This document shows, piece by piece, positions 3 to 46,555 of a stretch of DNA of 64,000 nucleotides. The position numbers and the translations under genes were made by a program. Origin of the DNA: Methylotenera mobilis JLW8 (lineage in GTDB: Bacteria; Pseudomonadota; Gammaproteobacteria; Burkholderiales; Methylophilaceae); assembly GCF_000023705.1 (NCBI RefSeq), contig NC_012968.1, forward strand, positions 1,426,001 through 1,490,000, in the 5' to 3' direction. The notes under the pieces were generated by a model, which worked only from the letters and a program-made list of their open reading frames with translations, did no database searches and was not told the DNA's origin. Within the stretch, counting starts at the first letter, position 1. Each line of letters opens with the position of its first letter.

Positions 3-956
3 AACCTAGCACTTTTAAAACAAATGATTGGTTTTACGATAGACCGCGACTTTAGCGACTGGCTTCAACAACAAAACCATACCTTATCCAAAGACGAACC
101 CTCTACAGCACTGATTGAAGCATGGTTTACCGAGATTTGCGAACGCACAGCACGCATGATCGCCCACTGGATGCGCGTCGGCTTTGTACATGGCGTGATG
201 AACACAGACAATATGTCGATTATCGGCCTCACCATTGATTATGGCCCTTATGGCTGGGTAGATAATTTTGACCCAGGCTGGACCCCAAACACTACCGACG
301 CACAAGGCAGGCGCTACTGCTTCGGCAGGCAGCATGATATTGGGCGCTGGAATCTGGAACGTCTTGCTGATGCACTATCCACTATTTTGCCAGATGCTGT
401 TGGCTTAAATCACGCTTTAGACCAGTATGAAACCGTTTACACGCAAAGCCTCATTGATGCACTTGTAGGCAAGTTTGGCTTAGACACATGGCAAGATGAC
501 GATGGTGAATTAATTAACCGCTGCTTTGAGCTGATGACCCGTGCCGAAGTGGACATGACATTATTCTTCACCCATTTATCACATATCAATTTAGCCTCAC
601 CTAATATCGCAGATTTAAAAATCGCGTTTTACACCGAGCAAGGTTACACCAATTTCGAGAGCGACTTTAACGCTTGGCTAGCCCAGTATGCCAAGCGCAT
701 ATTGCAAAGCACAGAATCAATTGCTGCTAGGCAGGCACGCATGGCTAGCCATAATCCGCGTTATGTTTTGCGTAATTACTTAGCTCAAGAAGCGATTGAT
801 TTAGCAGAGCAAGGTGACTCCAGCATGATTGAAACCCTGCTTAAGTTATTAAAAAACCCATACACCCAACAAGCGGGCATGGAGAAATTTGAAGATAAAC
901 GCCCAGACTGGGCAAGGCATAAGGCGGGTTGCTCCATGCTCTCGTGTAGTTCATAA
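3..956 (+). CDS. selO: Protein adenylyltransferase SelO (YdiU family), 3' part only
   Basis: The reading frame is open to the left edge, so the gene begins outside the window and only about the C-terminal two thirds is seen. SelO is a pseudokinase-fold enzyme that transfers AMP to Ser/Thr/Tyr of target proteins. Counting from the Met at base 24, HGVMNTDN (about 56-63) matches the catalytic loop and IDYGPYG (71-77) the metal-binding motif. The protein ends in CSMLSCSS, the Cys-rich tail typical of the family (selenocysteine-containing in animals). The Zur-like gene follows after 27 bp, possibly co-transcribed. Family assignment is firm; the substrate is unknown. Confidence 0.93.
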   Translation, partial: NLALLKQMIGFTIDRDFSDWLQQQNHTLSKDEPSTALIEAWFTEICERTARMIAHWMRVGFVHGVMNTDNMSIIGLTIDYGPYGWVDNFDPGWTPNTTDAQGRRYCFGRQHDIGRWNLERLADALSTILPDAVGLNHALDQYETVYTQSLIDALVGKFGLDTWQDDDGELINRCFELMTRAEVDMTLFFTHLSHINLASPNIADLKIAFYTEQGYTNFESDFNAWLAQYAKRILQSTESIAARQARMASHNPRYVLRNYLAQEAIDLAEQGDSSMIETLLKLLKNPYTQQAGMEKFEDKRPDWARHKAGCSMLSCSS

Positions 957-24573: not shown

Positions 24574-24598
24574 TTTACACAACCTTACAAAAGTTTAC
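24574..24598 (-). promoter_or_regulatory. CpxR-box-like triple half-site upstream of the Ser-rich gene
   Basis: TTTAC (24574), CTTAC (24584) and TTTAC (24594) each separated by exactly 5 bp. Read on the minus strand this is GTAAA-N5-GTAAG-N5-GTAAA, matching the CpxR consensus GTAAA-N5-GTAAA. The same motif stands beside the Cpx-like genes at 26271-26306. Confidence 0.6.
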
Positions 24599-24888
24599 AT
24601 CTATTTCAATAACATACTATTTGTCGATACTGCGTTGAAAATTGCGGCTAAAAAACAGTAACTAAAAACAAGCACAGCACTTTTAACTTAACCCAAACCA
24701 CTGAAACTAAACAAGACTTGAGTTTAGAGCCGCACACATTAAACATGCTGACATAGCCAGTAGCGACATAGTTACCGATGGCAAATTGAACAGGTTTGCG
24801 CTTCATAAAGCAAAAGACTAAGCATCGCATGCTGTTTGATTAGTACAGGTAGCGTTTTTAAAGTTTCATTTATTTAGGAGCGATTAAG

Positions 24889-25530
24889 ATGACCAGTATT
24901 AATAGTATTTCATCCTCAAGCAACATATACCAAACCTCACAAGTGAGCTCTGGCACTACAGCGGCACGATTCAAACCAGACGATGCGTCGCATCACGGTA
25001 AAGATGGCGGTGTATTGCTAGGCGCTATTGATAGCGCCCTTAAAGCTGCCGGCATCAGCGGCGGTCTTTCATCTATATTAAAAGAAACTGACAGTACAAG
25101 TACATCATCTACCAGCAATACTGAATCAAGCACAGACACAGCCTCCACAACCGATGCTAGTTCTGCGCTAAGTGAATTTATGGCCAATCTGATGGCAGCG
25201 TTACAGTCACAAAATGGCAAAAGCGTTGATGCTTCGTCAGAAACCAGCGATATGCCACCGCCACCTCCTCCACCAATGGGCATGGGTAAAGGTGATATAG
25301 AAGACAAACTGCAAAGCTTGATTGCACAACTAAACAATGCAAGCAGCATCACATCCAGTAATAGCACCGATACAGGCAGTGATGCATTAAGCACCAGTTT
25401 TAGCGACCTAATGAGTGCATTGGGCAAACAATCTTCCACCAGCAGTGATTTGGAAGCGTTTTTACAAGCACTATCAAGCAAGTTATCAGGCCAGGGCTCA
25501 GCTGGCAATGTAATTGATACGAAAGCTTAA
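24889..25530 (+). CDS. Ser/Thr-rich, cysteine-free protein with poly-proline tract, function unknown
   Basis: 213 residues that I do not recognise. It starts after a strong ribosome site (TTTAGGAGCGATTAAG). There is no signal peptide, membrane helix, Cys or Trp. Low-complexity Ser/Thr stretches separate short amphipathic helices of similar pattern: ALSEFMANLMAALQSQ, EDKLQSLIAQLNNA, LSTSFSDLMSALGKQ and DLEAFLQALSSKLSGQ. A seven-proline run with flanking Met (MPPPPPPPMGMG) lies near 121-132 and should need EF-P for translation. CpxR-like sites upstream and the neighbouring Cpx-like genes suggest an envelope-stress link. The composition resembles non-classically secreted proteins, but that is only an analogy. 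Confidence 0.75.
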   Translation: MTSINSISSSSNIYQTSQVSSGTTAARFKPDDASHHGKDGGVLLGAIDSALKAAGISGGLSSILKETDSTSTSSTSNTESSTDTASTTDASSALSEFMANLMAALQSQNGKSVDASSETSDMPPPPPPPMGMGKGDIEDKLQSLIAQLNNASSITSSNSTDTGSDALSTSFSDLMSALGKQSSTSSDLEAFLQALSSKLSGQGSAGNVIDTKA

Positions 25531-25656
25531 GCCGGCTATAACGCAACCTCATCTATATAATGCAGCTAGTAGCTAGATTGGATGCACCCTAGCCAACCAC
25601 TAGCTGCAGTTATTCATAGCACCGATTAGTATCCGCTGCTTTGTATCACGCCTAGC

Positions 25657-26187
25657 TTACAGCAAGCGCTCTAGCTTTTTGGTTTGATCTGAGCCGTGAT
25701 GAAATCTGCTTTTGCTAAAGCCTTCAGCATGATGCTGTCTCATTTCAGCCAGCTGTTTACGTTGCTCTGGGCTCAAAATCAAAAAGATCTGATTATCTGT
25801 AGAAGCACGATTAAACATAGACTCCTGCTCAATTTCTGCTAACTTTTCTGTAAGCTGCTTGGCTTTATCGCTATCAAACGTAGCAGAGTTGGACAGCGCT
25901 CTTAGCTCAGTCATTAACTGCTCACGCTGCTTCTCAGATTGTCTGATTTTTGGCACTTGCGGATAAACAATTTCGAACACTTTATCTTGCTGGCTATCAG
26001 ACAAGTTCAACGCAGACAAGTGCGGTGGCAAGCCTCTTGCGCCAAATGCATCATGCGGGAGTCTTCCTGCACCATGTGATTTTAGCGCATGCTCACAACG
26101 GTCACGCTTCACTGGATCAGCCTGCGAAGCTAAAGGAATAGCCATTGTGGCTAATGCTAATACTAAAATTGGGGTTGCGATTTTCAT
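25657..26187 (-). CDS. CpxP/Spy-family periplasmic protein (LTxxQ motifs)
   Basis: 176 residues with a signal peptide (MKIATPILVLALATMAIPLASQA) and an all-helical mature part. Two LTxxQ-type motifs are seen, LNLSDSQQ and LSPEQRKQL, about 85 residues apart, in the pattern of Spy, CpxP and ZraP. Such proteins bind misfolded periplasmic proteins or metals and restrain a sensor kinase. It is divergent from a CpxR/CpxA-like pair, as cpxP is in enterobacteria, with tandem GTAAA repeats in between. His-rich C-terminus (RQHHAEG, RFHHG) may bind metal. Confidence 0.82.
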   Translation of the reverse strand: MKIATPILVLALATMAIPLASQADPVKRDRCEHALKSHGAGRLPHDAFGARGLPPHLSALNLSDSQQDKVFEIVYPQVPKIRQSEKQREQLMTELRALSNSATFDSDKAKQLTEKLAEIEQESMFNRASTDNQIFLILSPEQRKQLAEMRQHHAEGFSKSRFHHGSDQTKKLERLL

Positions 26188-26270
26188 TTACAGTCTCCTG
26201 ATGAATAAATTAAGTATCATGGTTGGAACATGACCAATCAAATGACAGTTGCATTTTGCCTTGGTCGCTT

Positions 26271-26306
26271 GTAAATGCAGGTTAAGCAATAGTAAAGTTA
26301 GGTAAA
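26271..26306 (+). promoter_or_regulatory. Two tandem CpxR-box-like sites
   Basis: GTAAA-TGCAG-GTTAA (26271-26285) and GTAAA-GTTAG-GTAAA (26292-26306), the second an exact fit to GTAAA-N5-GTAAA. They lie between the divergent cpxP-like gene and the regulator gene, so can control both. Confidence 0.7.
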
Positions 26307-26383
26307 TGTCCAGCAACACTATTGTCGCGAGCTTAGTGTCGTCGTTATGATGTTGTATCTTTATAATGATTTTCCATGCCGCC

Positions 26384-27091
26384 ATGCACAAAATACTGCT
26401 AATTGATGATGATATTGAGCTCACCGCAATGCTTAAAGAGTTTTTATGCACGGAGGGTTTTGACGTAACCACCGCTAGCGATGGCGTTAGCGGTGCGCAG
26501 CTTGCCCTTAGCAATCAATTTGACCTCGCGGTGCTAGATGTCATGATGCCTAAAATGAATGGCATTGAAACGCTAGGCCTCATCCGAAAAAGCAGCCAAA
26601 TTCCGGTAATCATGCTCACTGCCAGAGGAGACGAGTCTGATCGGTTCTTTGGCCTAGAGCTAGGTGCGGATGATTATGTACCTAAGCCATGCACACCGCG
26701 TGAGCTCACTGCGCGCATTCGTGCGATATTGAGGCGCGCAAAACCAACGCAAGAAAGCTTACAAACCGAGAGCCAGCTCACTGTCGGCGACCTCACCATT
26801 TGGCCGGAACAACGCCGCGTAGAGTTAGACGGCAATACCATCAACCTCACCAGCACCGAATTTAACTTGCTAGAAGTACTGGCTAAGAATGCCGGTCATG
26901 TCGTAAGTAAGAAAGAACTGGCCAAACTAGGCATGGGCAAACCGCTGGCAAGATTTGATCGCAGCATAGACGTACACATGAGCAGTATTAGGCAAAAAAT
27001 TGGCACACTGAAAGATGGTAGAGACTGTATCCAAACCGTGTATCGCATGGGCTATCAGCTCATTAAAACACTACCGATTAAATCATCATGA
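26384..27091 (+). CDS. OmpR-family response regulator, CpxR-like
   Basis: 235 residues from the ATG at 26384 (MHKILLIDDD); a start at 26366 would add six residues. The receiver domain has acidic pair Asp8/Asp9 with Asp10, phospho-acceptor Asp52 (VLDVMMP), Thr in MLTARG and Lys in YVPKP; a winged-helix DNA-binding domain follows from about 135. The kinase gene overlaps its stop by 4 bp. CpxR-like sites lie 78-113 bp upstream, suggesting autoregulation. Confidence 0.9.
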   Translation: MHKILLIDDDIELTAMLKEFLCTEGFDVTTASDGVSGAQLALSNQFDLAVLDVMMPKMNGIETLGLIRKSSQIPVIMLTARGDESDRFFGLELGADDYVPKPCTPRELTARIRAILRRAKPTQESLQTESQLTVGDLTIWPEQRRVELDGNTINLTSTEFNLLEVLAKNAGHVVSKKELAKLGMGKPLARFDRSIDVHMSSIRQKIGTLKDGRDCIQTVYRMGYQLIKTLPIKSS

Positions 27092-28518
27092 ACAGGCTAT
27101 TCTGGAAGTTCTTTATGTTCCTGCTGGTGGCTCAGCTCACCGCGGTCACTGGGGTCAGTGTTGCAATCTGGCTACAACATCGCCATGAGGCCTTGCAAAG
27201 TACTGGGGTGGAAATGTCACCGCCAGCACGTTCATTGGTGGAAGCTTCAGCCTCCACACTGCAATTTGGCGGTGTAGAAGCACTCAGGCATTTATTGCAA
27301 AGCTGGCAAAAACGCCCAATGCCGCAGCTACTGGCGATAGATAACAAAGGGCAAGAACTATTACAGCGCAGCTACACCAAGGCAAGCTTTGATACGGCCA
27401 TTGCATTAGTGCGCGAAGACCAGCGTCAACGTCATGTAAAACAGATAAAACTGAACAATGGGCAATCATTTTTGCTGTTTGTACCGGACAATGGGCGCCC
27501 CTCCGTCGTTGCACCAGCTCCTACCGAGCGTAGCCACAATCACCGGAGCCCTGTAAGCGATGCACGCATGCCAGCCGCGGACAATATGGAACAATACAGA
27601 AGCGCACCGCACAGGCCGCCGGTACGCTTTCCGTTAATGCCATTATTAGGCGGTGTTGTTGTAAGCTTTTTATTTGCAGCACTGCTGGCTTGGTATTTTT
27701 CTAAGCCGATTAACATTTTACGTAGTGCATTTGAGCAGGCGTCCCATGGCAAACTGGATGTGCGCGTCGCCAACGCGATGGGTGGGCGGCGCGATGAGCT
27801 TTCAGACCTAGGCCATGATTTTGACGCAATGGCATCGCGCCTGGAAAGCTTACTGCAAAGTCAGACCAAGCTACTGCACCATGTTTCTCATGAGCTGCGC
27901 TCGCCGCTTGCCAGAATCCAAATGGCGCTAGGGCTAGTAACACAAGCACCACACAAGATTACCGAATTTATTGACCGCATCACGCTAGAAGCCAACCGTA
28001 TGGATGGATTAATCGGAGAACTACTCACACTCTCAAGGCTAGAGTCAGGTGCCGTGCAAATTAAAAAGGAAACGCTGGCGTTAAATCAGCTTCTGCATAG
28101 CATAGTGGAAGACGCCCAATTTGAGGCAGCATCTAAAGATATCAAGCTAGGCATGAACTTAGCGCGTGAATATTCGCTGCAAGGACAGCCAGACCTGCTA
28201 TATCGAGCAATTGAAAACGTAGTGCGCAATGCCATTAAGTATAGCCCTGAGCACAGCGCGATTGACATCAACTGCCATCAAGACGCGACAGATGACTGCC
28301 TTCACATCACAGTAACAGACGAAGGCGCTGGTGTTGACGCACTAGAACTGGAGGATATATTCAAACCGTTTGTGAGGGGCGTTTCCGGCAGCCAAACCGT
28401 AGGGCATGGCGTTGGGCTGGCCATCACCAAGCAAGTAATTGAAGCGCATGGCGGACATGTACGTGCAGACAATCTCAGCCCGAATGGCTTTAGAATTGAG
28501 ATCGCTCTACCCGGCTAA
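27088..28518 (+). CDS. Sensor histidine kinase, CpxA-like
   Basis: 476 residues: membrane helix 1 (about 5-28), a periplasmic sensor region of roughly 160 residues, membrane helix 2 (about 185-210), HAMP, a HisKA domain with His268 in HHVSHELRSPLARI, and an ATPase domain with N box NVVRNAIKYSP, DEGAGVD and GHGVGLAI. It overlaps the regulator gene by ATGA. With the divergent CpxP-like gene it forms a Cpx-type envelope-stress set. Confidence 0.9.
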   Translation: MNRLFWKFFMFLLVAQLTAVTGVSVAIWLQHRHEALQSTGVEMSPPARSLVEASASTLQFGGVEALRHLLQSWQKRPMPQLLAIDNKGQELLQRSYTKASFDTAIALVREDQRQRHVKQIKLNNGQSFLLFVPDNGRPSVVAPAPTERSHNHRSPVSDARMPAADNMEQYRSAPHRPPVRFPLMPLLGGVVVSFLFAALLAWYFSKPINILRSAFEQASHGKLDVRVANAMGGRRDELSDLGHDFDAMASRLESLLQSQTKLLHHVSHELRSPLARIQMALGLVTQAPHKITEFIDRITLEANRMDGLIGELLTLSRLESGAVQIKKETLALNQLLHSIVEDAQFEAASKDIKLGMNLAREYSLQGQPDLLYRAIENVVRNAIKYSPEHSAIDINCHQDATDDCLHITVTDEGAGVDALELEDIFKPFVRGVSGSQTVGHGVGLAITKQVIEAHGGHVRADNLSPNGFRIEIALPG

Positions 28519-43560: not shown

Positions 43561-45597
43561 CTATATGGTGTCATTAAATGGCGACACATAATGCTTTCTG
43601 CGGTCAGATTCAACAGGTTGATGAGTTTTGCGTCGCTCCAACGGTAGTGAAACAATAAAGGTGGCTCCACGCCCCTCTTCGCTATGAACAGATACGCTGC
43701 CACGATGCTTTTTAATAGTCACACTCACAAAATATAAACCTAAACCACTGCCTTCCTGCGCCTGATGTTCGCCTTCAGCCCTGCTAAAACGTTTAAACAC
43801 TTTGGCAATTTTTTTTGCTGGTATTCCCGGTCCCTGGTCGATCACTTTTAGCACGATTGATTGCTGATTATTTTCTATGATTACACTGATCACACCGCGC
43901 TCTGGTGAGTACTTAACAGCATTGAGCAAAATGTTTGAAACTGCCCTAAGTAGCAAACCAAAATCCCCCCTTACCCATACACACTCCTCTGGAAAATCTT
44001 TATGCAACTTTAGTCTTTTTGCCACAGATATTTCATACACATCATCAATCGCCTGCTGCGTGAGGCTAACCATATCAAGCTCATGAAATCTATTCACATT
44101 TGCCATCTCCGCTCGCGATGCCTGCAAAAATCCTTCCGCCATACTATGCGCACGAATTAACATTTTGCTCATACGCTGGGAGTATTTATTGGCCTCAAAC
44201 TTGTCCAACAACATCATTGCTGCGCCAAGGGGGGCTCGAATATCATGTGTGATGAACGCTAAAGTATCATTTCTACTCTTATGTAAGTTTCGTAAGTGCT
44301 GCGCTGTTAAATTCACCTTTAAAATTCTTGACTGCAACGGATCAACATTAGACTCATCTAAACTGTCTTCTGTCACCATACCCAAGGCAGCCAACTCATC
44401 ACGCAACCTTTGCAACTCTTTATCTAAGGACAGTTGGGCAGAATTAAGCTTACGCCAACTCCAGATTGGATAAGCTAACAAGATAGCCGCTAAAGCACCT
44501 GAAACAGGGATCCAAACTTGCCACCAGTGCACAATAGAAAGTGAAGCTAAGATAATCATGGGGAAATATACTGCAATCATCACCACAGATTTCAAAGGCT
44601 GCATCCTAGGCAACCATAACAATGGAAACATTGCCAATAGCGCACATAGCAAACTGACGAGCCAACCTGGCGCATCCACGACCAATGATGCATCTTGCAT
44701 CGCGGCAATCGCATTAGCGTGAAACTCTATCCCCGGCATTGGTTGCGAGTAGCTTGAAACTGGCGTATACAGCACATCACCGCCTCCTAATGCTGTCACA
44801 CCAACCAGTACAATTTTGTCCCTGAAAAAATCAGATGAATACTTATTAGCCAAAACATCCACATAGGAGATCTGATTAAAGTGTCTAGGTGGTCCAAAGA
44901 AATCAACTTTCCGCGGTGAATATGAAATCAAGCGCTGCGCAGCATCTCCGGCATAATTTAGCGCACTCGGGTTCGATGGATGAATAACTGGAGCAACAGT
45001 ATTCACATAGGCAGGAAGCATATGAGCAACCTGCAATACCGATTGTGAAAAATGTGGCAGTCCTACTGAGGTGAGGGCTGATGACGACAAACCTTCCCAT
45101 AGGTAAAAGCTACGTGCGACGCCATCAGAATCAAGCAAAACGTTAAGTCGACCAAAACCAGCAACTGATCCAACTAATGGCGGAATAGGTAAACTCTGCT
45201 TAACAGCAGCACCAACATAAGGCGCCTCAAGCAAAACAGGTAAAACAACATTACCGGCACGTCTAATCGCTTGCGCAAAAGCATAGTCTACTTCTTCAGC
45301 ATCGCGCTCTGGCTCAGAAAATACGACACCAAAACCTATTACCTTCGGTTGCTGACCGACTAAATGATTAATAAGCTCCGTATGGAATCGCTTAGACCAA
45401 GGCCATTTACCAATGGCATTAATACTCGCCTCATCAACTGCAACAATCACTATATTATCTGGTGCATTTTTGAAACTTAGGCGCTGCCCTAGATCATAAT
45501 AAAAATGATCAAACCGAACTAAAACCTCACTTAAAGTAAATGCACAAGCTATAAGGGCTAGGGCAATGGCAGTAAACAATCTATCATTTATTTGCAT
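43561..45597 (-). CDS. CHASE2-domain sensor histidine kinase
   Basis: 678 residues: N-terminal membrane helix, a periplasmic CHASE2 sensor domain (about 30-300, with FSEPERDAEEVDYAFAQAI and VLVGVTALGGGD), three membrane helices at about 310-385, a short coiled coil, HisKA with His451 in FITHDIRAPLG, and an ATPase domain with NILLNAVKYSP, DQGPGIP and GSGLGLYF. CHASE2 ligands are unknown. Its ATG overlaps the stop of a small exported peptide gene; the OmpR-type regulator gene lies just upstream. Confidence 0.9.
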   Translation of the reverse strand: MQINDRLFTAIALALIACAFTLSEVLVRFDHFYYDLGQRLSFKNAPDNIVIVAVDEASINAIGKWPWSKRFHTELINHLVGQQPKVIGFGVVFSEPERDAEEVDYAFAQAIRRAGNVVLPVLLEAPYVGAAVKQSLPIPPLVGSVAGFGRLNVLLDSDGVARSFYLWEGLSSSALTSVGLPHFSQSVLQVAHMLPAYVNTVAPVIHPSNPSALNYAGDAAQRLISYSPRKVDFFGPPRHFNQISYVDVLANKYSSDFFRDKIVLVGVTALGGGDVLYTPVSSYSQPMPGIEFHANAIAAMQDASLVVDAPGWLVSLLCALLAMFPLLWLPRMQPLKSVVMIAVYFPMIILASLSIVHWWQVWIPVSGALAAILLAYPIWSWRKLNSAQLSLDKELQRLRDELAALGMVTEDSLDESNVDPLQSRILKVNLTAQHLRNLHKSRNDTLAFITHDIRAPLGAAMMLLDKFEANKYSQRMSKMLIRAHSMAEGFLQASRAEMANVNRFHELDMVSLTQQAIDDVYEISVAKRLKLHKDFPEECVWVRGDFGLLLRAVSNILLNAVKYSPERGVISVIIENNQQSIVLKVIDQGPGIPAKKIAKVFKRFSRAEGEHQAQEGSGLGLYFVSVTIKKHRGSVSVHSEEGRGATFIVSLPLERRKTHQPVESDRRKHYVSPFNDTI

Positions 45598-45743
45598 AAA
45601 TCGTTTACTAGTTGATAGGGTTTATGTAAATTGGGCACTAAATTGCAAGATTGGACCAAATCATCGGCAATGGCAATATTTGCCAAATTTAGTAGCAAAC
45701 CTAATGTACAGCACGAAATTTTTGTTATTTTAATGGTGTTCAT
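45588..45743 (-). CDS. Small exported peptide (51 aa), unknown
   Basis: From the ATG at 45743 it reads MNTIKITKISCCTLGLLLNLANIAIA and then about 25 residues ending NDLCK: a signal peptide with a short mature peptide holding two Cys. Its last 10 bases overlap the kinase start (TTATGCAAATAA), a translational-coupling arrangement that supports a real gene. An in-frame start at 45776 is also possible. In many bacteria the gene at this position codes a FecR/LysM exported protein, so this could be its remnant. Confidence 0.5.
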   Translation of the reverse strand: MNTIKITKISCCTLGLLLNLANIAIADDLVQSCNLVPNLHKPYQLVNDLCK

Positions 45744-45868
45744 GCAAGTCATTTTTTCAAACTGGAACTGACACACAAAGTACCACGAACAACCCTATTT
45801 TTTTCAATATCAAGCCGCACTGATTTGTTAAGTTTTGTAAATTGTCAGCAACTGACAATAGTAAATCG

Positions 45869-46555
45869 CTAGCGATTGCGCTCTAGGCGGTAGCCTTGCT
45901 GGTAAATTGAAGTTAATCTCCAACCATATTCTGACGTCAGTTTTAGTTTAGTACGTAAGTGACTAATATGCACATCAACCTTGCGCGTTTCTACTTCTGA
46001 CGTAGCACCCCACACCACATTCATTAAGTGTACTCTTGATAACAAAACACCTTCATTTTTCAAAAAATACAATGCCAAATCAAACTCTTTATCGGTTAGC
46101 CTTACCGCCTCTCCGGCAAGTGTTGCGACTCTCAGTTTAGTGTCAAACCTCAGCGCATAGAACTCATAATTAGTTTTATCAACAAGCTGATTCGATGTGC
46201 GCCTTAGTAGTGCATGGATGCGCGCCATTAGTAGAGGTCGACTGGCTGGTTTAACAACATAATCATCGGCACCGGCTTCAATCACACGAACAATATCCTG
46301 TTCTTCAGACCTGCCAGTAAAAAAAATAATTGGGGGTAACTTTTTAGCTCTAAGCTTGATGCTCACCATGACATCCGGCCCTTCCATATCAGGTAAAGCC
46401 CAATCAAACACACATAAATCATATTGCCCGTGTGAAAACTGACGTAAGAAATCCAATCCAGTTTTAAAGTGATCCACCTCAAAATTATCTTGCTGCAACC
46501 ACTCAATCAGCACATCGGCAAAGGCCAAGTCATCTTCCAACAATGCAATTTTCAT
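45869..46555 (-). CDS. OmpR-family response regulator
   Basis: 228 residues. Receiver domain with acidic residues Glu7/Asp8/Asp9, phospho-acceptor Asp51 (VFDWALPD), Thr in FFTGRS and Lys in VVKPAS; winged-helix domain from about 130 (AVRLTDKEFDLALYF). It precedes the exported-peptide and CHASE2-kinase genes on the same strand and is their likely partner. Targets unknown; the flanking C1 genes are candidates only by position. Confidence 0.9.
   Translation of the reverse strand: MKIALLEDDLAFADVLIEWLQQDNFEVDHFKTGLDFLRQFSHGQYDLCVFDWALPDMEGPDVMVSIKLRAKKLPPIIFFTGRSEEQDIVRVIEAGADDYVVKPASRPLLMARIHALLRRTSNQLVDKTNYEFYALRFDTKLRVATLAGEAVRLTDKEFDLALYFLKNEGVLLSRVHLMNVVWGATSEVETRKVDVHISHLRTKLKLTSEYGWRLTSIYQQGYRLERNR

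Follow-up and report, generated by a model that had tools for sequence, protein, structure and literature searches.

The stretch of DNA analyzed here, 64,000 nucleotides of Methylotenera mobilis JLW8 (contig NC_012968.1, positions 1,426,001 to 1,490,000; hereafter the window, in whose coordinates all features are given), carries a set of genes resembling the Cpx envelope-stress system and, beside it, a gene for a Ser-rich, poly-proline protein that may be one of its outputs. On the forward strand, a CpxR-type response regulator of 235 amino acids (26384..27091) with Response_reg and Trans_reg_C domains is followed by a CpxA-type sensor kinase of 476 amino acids (27088..28518) with two transmembrane-like stretches and HAMP, HisKA, and HATPase_c domains. 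The open reading frame of the regulator is open from 26366, and its start was set to match that of Escherichia coli CpxR, with which it is identical in 117 of 238 alignment columns and shares the motif FDRxIDxHxSxxRxK in the DNA-binding domain. Its best NCBIfam model is CpxR (E-value 1.9e-71, 240.7 bits, short of the cut-off of 341), and the receiver domain of E. coli CpxR is its sole PDB match at E-values up to 1e-40. The two top NCBIfam models for the kinase are both CpxA, scored under their cut-offs. Divergent from this pair, on the reverse strand, lies a gene (25657..26187) for a Spy/CpxP-like LTXXQ protein of 176 amino acids with a hydrophobic N-terminus; it matches PF07813 over the cut-off (2.2e-07), and its best NCBIfam model is Spy (8.2e-15, under the Spy cut-off). 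The Ser-rich protein, which we assign to a family termed A2, is encoded on the forward strand (24889..25530) and has 213 amino acids, of which 49 are Ser and none is Cys or Trp. Hydropathy revealed no hydrophobic N-terminus, signal, or transmembrane-like stretch, and no Pfam family matched over its cut-off. An AlphaFold2 model (mean predicted local distance difference test score, pLDDT, of 55.9) has six helices (residues 42-53, 61-67, 87-110, 136-151, 162-178, and 185-200) separated by long low-confidence stretches. The protein has 41 relatives, the named ones being hypothetical proteins of Methylotenera, Methylophilus, Duganella, and Chromobacterium.

Tandem GTAAA repeats lie on both sides of the CpxP-like gene. 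A preliminary description made from the window alone had reported an exact CpxR-type box and a near copy between the CpxP-like gene and cpxRA, as well as a triple half-site before the Ser-rich gene, and all three were found in the sequence where it had placed them. The exact box, GTAAA-N5-GTAAA (GTAAAGTTAGGTAAA), occupies 26292..26306 on the forward strand, and the second, GTAAA-N5-GTTAA (GTAAATGCAGGTTAA; one mismatch), is offset from it by 21 bp at 26271..26285 on the same strand. The triple half-site, GTAAA-N5-GTAAG-N5-GTAAA, occupies 24574..24598 on the reverse strand, so that it reads TTTAC-N5-CTTAC-N5-TTTAC toward the Ser-rich gene. A motif this short and AT-rich might be matched by chance, and motif counts leave room for that view. 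The window contains 10 boxes within one mismatch where 6.4 are expected, which is no clear excess, and since 13 of 100 shuffled sequences contained at least 10, the count by itself proves nothing. Across the genome (2,547,570 bases), the 14 exact boxes scarcely exceed the 11 matches to the reversed motif. Counting in the window or the genome was therefore discarded as uninformative. From the genome frequency, about 0.001 exact boxes are expected in a cpxP-cpxR gap of 178-196 bp. The triple pattern (with GTAAR as the middle half-site) occurs once in the M. mobilis genome and in 24 of 120 Methylophilaceae genomes, one of these being a simple repeat; the reversed pattern was found in none of the 120.

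Position and conservation proved far more telling than counts. CpxP-like relatives are encoded in 40 of the 120 family genomes (48 matches in total); the 30 best matches were scored with regard to strand over 320 bp of upstream sequence, and a few others were inspected. An exact box is present upstream of 28 of these 30 loci, in nine of ten genera, and in all 28 it runs TTTAC..TTTAC toward cpxP. As a control, the remaining 19 permutations of GTAAA were each found at no more than one of the 30 loci. The two loci without an exact box, L055 (g7) and L060 (g9), both have stop codons within the match. Among the 18 weaker matches, the gap was inspected for five: the box is exact in G021 and G001, and only a triple form, oriented alike and with each box containing one mismatch, is present in G010:C3, G062, and the second G053 copy. 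The 16 loci that have two boxes within one mismatch share the layout TTTAC-N5-TTTAC-N6-TTAAC-N5-TTTACA, in which one T is variable, and all 16 have CANAAT at a constant distance after the boxes, which we read as a likely -10 element. In the window, the corresponding putative -10-like element of the cpxP promoter would be GCAAAATG (26252..26259, reverse strand), at +47..54 from the first half-site. With position and orientation kept at 28 of 30 cpxP loci and, as described below, at all four Methylotenera Ser-rich loci, and with permutation controls near zero, an origin of the repeats by chance is so improbable that we give it almost no weight. The repeats are thus confirmed as real and conserved.

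The gene order of the window recurs in one other Methylotenera genome (G040). In two more (G027 and G090), the Ser-rich gene is located elsewhere among unrelated neighbors; a second cpxRA pair lies at a distance of about 5.5 kb, and its CpxR shares 71-73% identity with that of the window. The triple site is present before the Ser-rich gene in all four, that is, in every Methylotenera genome having this gene, and together with the block TTCAATAA (24605..24612, forward strand), which follows the site at a constant distance and is identical in all four loci, it is the best-kept part of an otherwise diverged upstream region. The block is possibly part of the Ser-rich promoter. Two candidate -10 elements, TACTAT (24615-24620) and GTCGATAC (24623-24630), also lie on the forward strand, and are near-identical only in the window genome and G040. 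The triple site could instead belong to the divergent cluster tig-clpP-clpX-lon, or to an undetected small RNA, leaving the Ser-rich gene a bystander: the distances from the site, about 480 bp to tig and 291 bp to the start of the Ser-rich gene, would accommodate a small RNA. In G027 and G090, however, the site stays before the Ser-rich gene despite the unrelated neighbors, and nothing else lies downstream of it in the gap. Moreover, the interval from cpxP to tig is free of boxes within one mismatch in three genomes that have the cpx-tig order and lack the Ser-rich gene (G069, G112, and G051), and in the four genomes with the gene little of the leader is conserved apart from the site and the TTCAATAA block. 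We consider service to tig or a small RNA unlikely.

We therefore return to the reading in which the window encodes a Cpx-type envelope-stress circuit with the Ser-rich gene as an extra output, to which we assign a probability of roughly 0.78 on the evidence of sequence comparison. The regulator is nearest to CpxR and the kinase nearest to CpxA, the divergent gene encodes an LTXXQ protein, and the cpxP box is conserved. In this circuit, CpxA would sense envelope stress and phosphorylate CpxR, which would bind the tandem GTAAA half-sites as head-to-tail dimers. CpxR would then activate the CpxP-like gene from four half-sites ending just before its -10 element, and probably also activate, rather than repress, the Ser-rich gene from the triple site.

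Several observations weigh against this reading or narrow it. The scores of the regulator, the kinase, and the Spy/CpxP-like protein are all under the equivalog cut-offs of NCBIfam. The triple site is missing at all 16 A2 homologues examined outside Methylotenera, comprising nine of nine in Methylophilus, four of four at other loci of the family (L028, with only 309 bp of upstream sequence, L029, L030, and L033), and three of three outside the family (L141-L143), so that the designation as a Cpx output holds for Methylotenera only. The nine Methylophilus genomes do encode a CpxR-like regulator (56-57% identity), and the 7-8 kb around it contain no exact box; no CpxP relative was found in these nine genomes. 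The Ser-rich site thus accompanies a cpxP-type circuit, on two lineages only, and the Cpx link of the gene is a Methylotenera trait seen in four genomes. The triple site also starts 280-315 bp before the start codon, compared with 109-245 bp (median 130) in 47 loci of the EF-hand family described below, and no -10 element is common to all four Methylotenera loci. The preliminary description had proposed both the Cpx-type circuit and the Ser-rich output. The circuit is borne out by the best models and by the boxes at cpxP; the output stands for Methylotenera, where the site is present with the gene and absent from syntenic genomes without it, and does not extend to the homologues elsewhere. Its suggested scan of Methylophilaceae, in which a lack of conservation in the same gene order was to count against it, found the repeats conserved, and its interpretation is supported.

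A second family of proteins, which could not be seen from the window alone, ties the same sites to cpxRA across Betaproteobacteria. In other genera of the Methylophilaceae, the gene directly after cpxP or one gene beyond encodes an EF-hand, Ser-rich, poly-proline protein (family A1). Within the family, an upstream box within one mismatch is present at all 10 A1 copies that lie near cpxP, at eight of them in triple form, and at none of four Methylophilus copies away from cpx; nine A1 seed sequences were chosen by adjacency to cpxP or a triple site, which biases the counts within the family. For a wider view, named genome contigs carrying the best 80 of at least 117 A1 relatives, mostly from Betaproteobacteria, were scored for a box within one mismatch in the 350 bp upstream and for a nearby CpxR-type regulator, defined as one at least 50% identical to the window CpxR. 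A box was present at 49 of the 53 loci with a CpxR-type neighbor, at one of the 10 with a less similar regulator, and at eight of the 17 with no regulator on the stretch. Excluding the 10 loci from the family, the same classes gave 42/46, 1/10, and 8/14 (Fisher P = 9e-07 for 42/46 versus 1/10, uncorrected for kinship). The loci outside the family were not selected by site, and they include many related metagenome-assembled genomes for whose phylogeny the counts are uncorrected. No box in the opposite orientation was found at any of the 80 loci. The GTAAA repeats occur at 58 of the 80, compared with 31 for TAAAG and 9 for AGTAA, both one-base shifts of the motif, and five or fewer for any other permutation. 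Of the 53 loci with a CpxR-type neighbor, only 11 have a CpxP-like match, and the EF-hand gene often takes the position of cpxP; in Azonexus hydrophilus (L202), for example, it lies there divergent from cpxR. Among 7998 scored candidates, the A1 family comprises 1523 proteins at E-values up to 1e-10.

The A1 proteins resemble the window protein in their Ser-rich composition, similar start, poly-proline stretch, lack of Cys and of transmembrane-like stretches (nine sequences checked), triple site, and slot beside cpxRA. They differ in having EF hands and, often, a sigma-28-like element, neither of which is found in the window protein or its gene; the window protein gave no hit to an EF-hand model at E-values up to 0.1. 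As a comparison with the A1 profile gave an hhalign probability of 42% over 23 columns only, homology of the window protein to A1 is unproven. Both A1 and A2 genes also adjoin other two-component pairs without a box. At eight loci (L075 5310-8221, L076 5319-9442, L223, L228, L235, L260, L266, and L274), Ser-rich or EF-hand homologues lie near a pair whose regulator is 33-37% identical to the window CpxR, without CpxR-type boxes. Separately, three Methylotenera genomes have a second cpxRA pair convergent to a small gene (L187:2892-3508, L188:3409-4023, and L189:2841-3457) encoding 167-168 amino acids and preceded, at about 110 bp, by an exact box. Pfam confirmation of the EF hands covers L187 only, and the small gene may represent another, third type of EF-hand gene linked to CpxR.

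When 47 A1 loci were aligned on the triple site, a shared block, GGCCGATAACTTGC, became apparent. The sequence GCCGATAA occurs within one mismatch exactly 55 bp on (+55) at 36 of these loci, and elsewhere between +26 and +139 it was found just twice, both times at +56. The accompanying -35 is weak, with the full T[CA]AA at 7 of the 36 loci and one mismatch at 16. At two Methylobacillus loci, the triple site is present and the block is missing. Upstream of flagellin-type genes, all 12 family genomes examined have T[CA]AA-N15 followed by a one-mismatch form of GCCGATAA (NCCGATAA or GTCGATAA). Outside the family, three of eight such upstream regions have TAAA-N15 with two mismatches, one has a single mismatch and no -35, and four have no match. 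Since flagellin promoters match within the family and more weakly outside it, sigma-28-like is a fair name for the element within the family only. A sigma-28 promoter (TAAA or TCAA-N15-GCCGATAA) was also considered for the Ser-rich gene of the window and is not supported; only GTCGATAC or GTCGATAT is present, at a shifted distance and in two of the four genomes. The flagellin-type domain PF00669, which also matches FlgL, is encoded in 25 of 25 family genomes with an A1 or A2 homologue, compared with 35 of 95 others (Fisher P = 2e-09), an association confounded by genome reduction and kinship. The 25 genomes were defined by full-length homologues at E-values up to 2.1e-9 in one search and up to 1e-50 in the other. 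A comparison of GCCGATAA with flagellin presence was uninformative, as flagellin was found in 67 of 68 genomes searched.

The motility connection raises the question of the direction of control. In enterobacteria, motility genes are shut off by CpxR during stress, and CpxR might likewise repress the Ser-rich and EF-hand genes, turning off a motility-linked gene. The constant distance of the sigma-28-like element and the presence of a flagellin-type domain in all 25 family genomes with either protein would suit repression, yet at the EF-hand loci the half-sites lie just upstream of the -35, the usual position for an activator, next to a -35 that is itself weak, and the cpxP sites share the same orientation. 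Repression is a serious but doubtful alternative, and activation from the triple site is the reading we prefer. In many Betaproteobacteria, the slot of the Ser-rich protein is taken by a Ser-rich, poly-proline EF-hand protein whose gene likewise follows a triple site and often a sigma-28-like element; on this basis, we hypothesize that the output couples envelope stress with motility or life at surfaces. The EF-hand, Ser-rich proteins placed under like sites in related Betaproteobacteria suggest an overlooked branch of the Cpx response. A broader proposal, which we advance tentatively and consider less likely than not, is that the betaproteobacterial Cpx response has a class of outputs undescribed in the regulon of enterobacteria. 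These would be Ser-rich proteins with poly-proline stretches, the majority also with EF hands, whose genes CpxR would drive from a triple half-site placed immediately before a sigma-28 promoter; a single promoter would then read both envelope stress and the flagellar program. Having no visible signal peptide, these proteins may leave the cell by way of the flagellar export apparatus or act as calcium binders in the cytoplasm, adjusting motility or attachment, and the window protein could be a Methylotenera replacement without EF hands in the same slot. The analysis points to a probable regulator and a promoter architecture for a large uncharacterized EF-hand family, and to a candidate role linking envelope stress with flagella and perhaps calcium.

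The arrangement resembles known Cpx systems to differing degrees. In E. coli K-12 (NC_000913.3), as in the window, cpxP is divergent from cpxRA, with an exact box in the gap in the same orientation relative to cpxP; the E. coli gap has one box within one mismatch, whereas the window has four half-sites, and the annotated 7-kb stretch of E. coli, unlike the window, contains no Ser-rich gene. A further difference is that the CpxP-like protein of the window is nearer to the Spy model than to the CpxP model. According to the accessible portion of a report on the Pseudomonas aeruginosa Cpx system (PMC12802237), GTAAA direct repeats precede cpxP and efflux genes there, CpxP is nearer to Spy, and the locus has the additional genus-specific genes cpxM and cpxH; unlike in the window, the kinase and regulator genes flank cpxP on opposite sides. 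Its main text makes no mention of the term EF-hand. In the literature searched, mainly openly available, no description of a link between CpxR or CpxP and EF-hand or serine-rich proteins was found. Among the matches listed for Methylophilaceae, Methylotenera, or Betaproteobacteria, none contained "cpxr", and "cpx" is absent from the main text of the M. mobilis transcriptome paper (PMC3728764). The present analysis offers evidence, at the level of sequence, for a Cpx response in methylotrophs as well as in other Betaproteobacteria.

Further sites were found outside the cpx locus. In the window genome, exact boxes lie between an ABC-ATPase gene (assigned by eye) and yhdP (L009, G000:C1:1545821) and before an outer-membrane efflux gene (L012, G000:C1:2276657), and these likely mark additional Cpx targets; most of the other exact boxes in the genome are inside genes. 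A triple site precedes what is apparently one outer-membrane efflux gene in four Methylotenera genomes (by Pfam in one of the four). Efflux genes with boxes in Methylotenera fit the efflux content of the P. aeruginosa Cpx regulon, as given in the accessible part of PMC12802237. In three genomes of one genus (L102, L103, and L104, 1501-1525), a triple site one base off that of the window lies about 550 bp before flhB, with little sequence common to the three beyond the site. Two Methylotenera genomes without a cpxP match have the triple pattern within a flgK-like gene, assigned by eye (L095 and L099, 1501-1525), which is probably a coincidence of coding sequence. Finally, the window carries another two-component pair on its reverse strand (43561-46555), consisting by eye of an OmpR-type regulator (45869-46555) and a large sensor kinase (43561-45597), with one-mismatch GTAAA-N5-GTAAA matches at 45827, in the gap, and at 45902, within the regulator gene.

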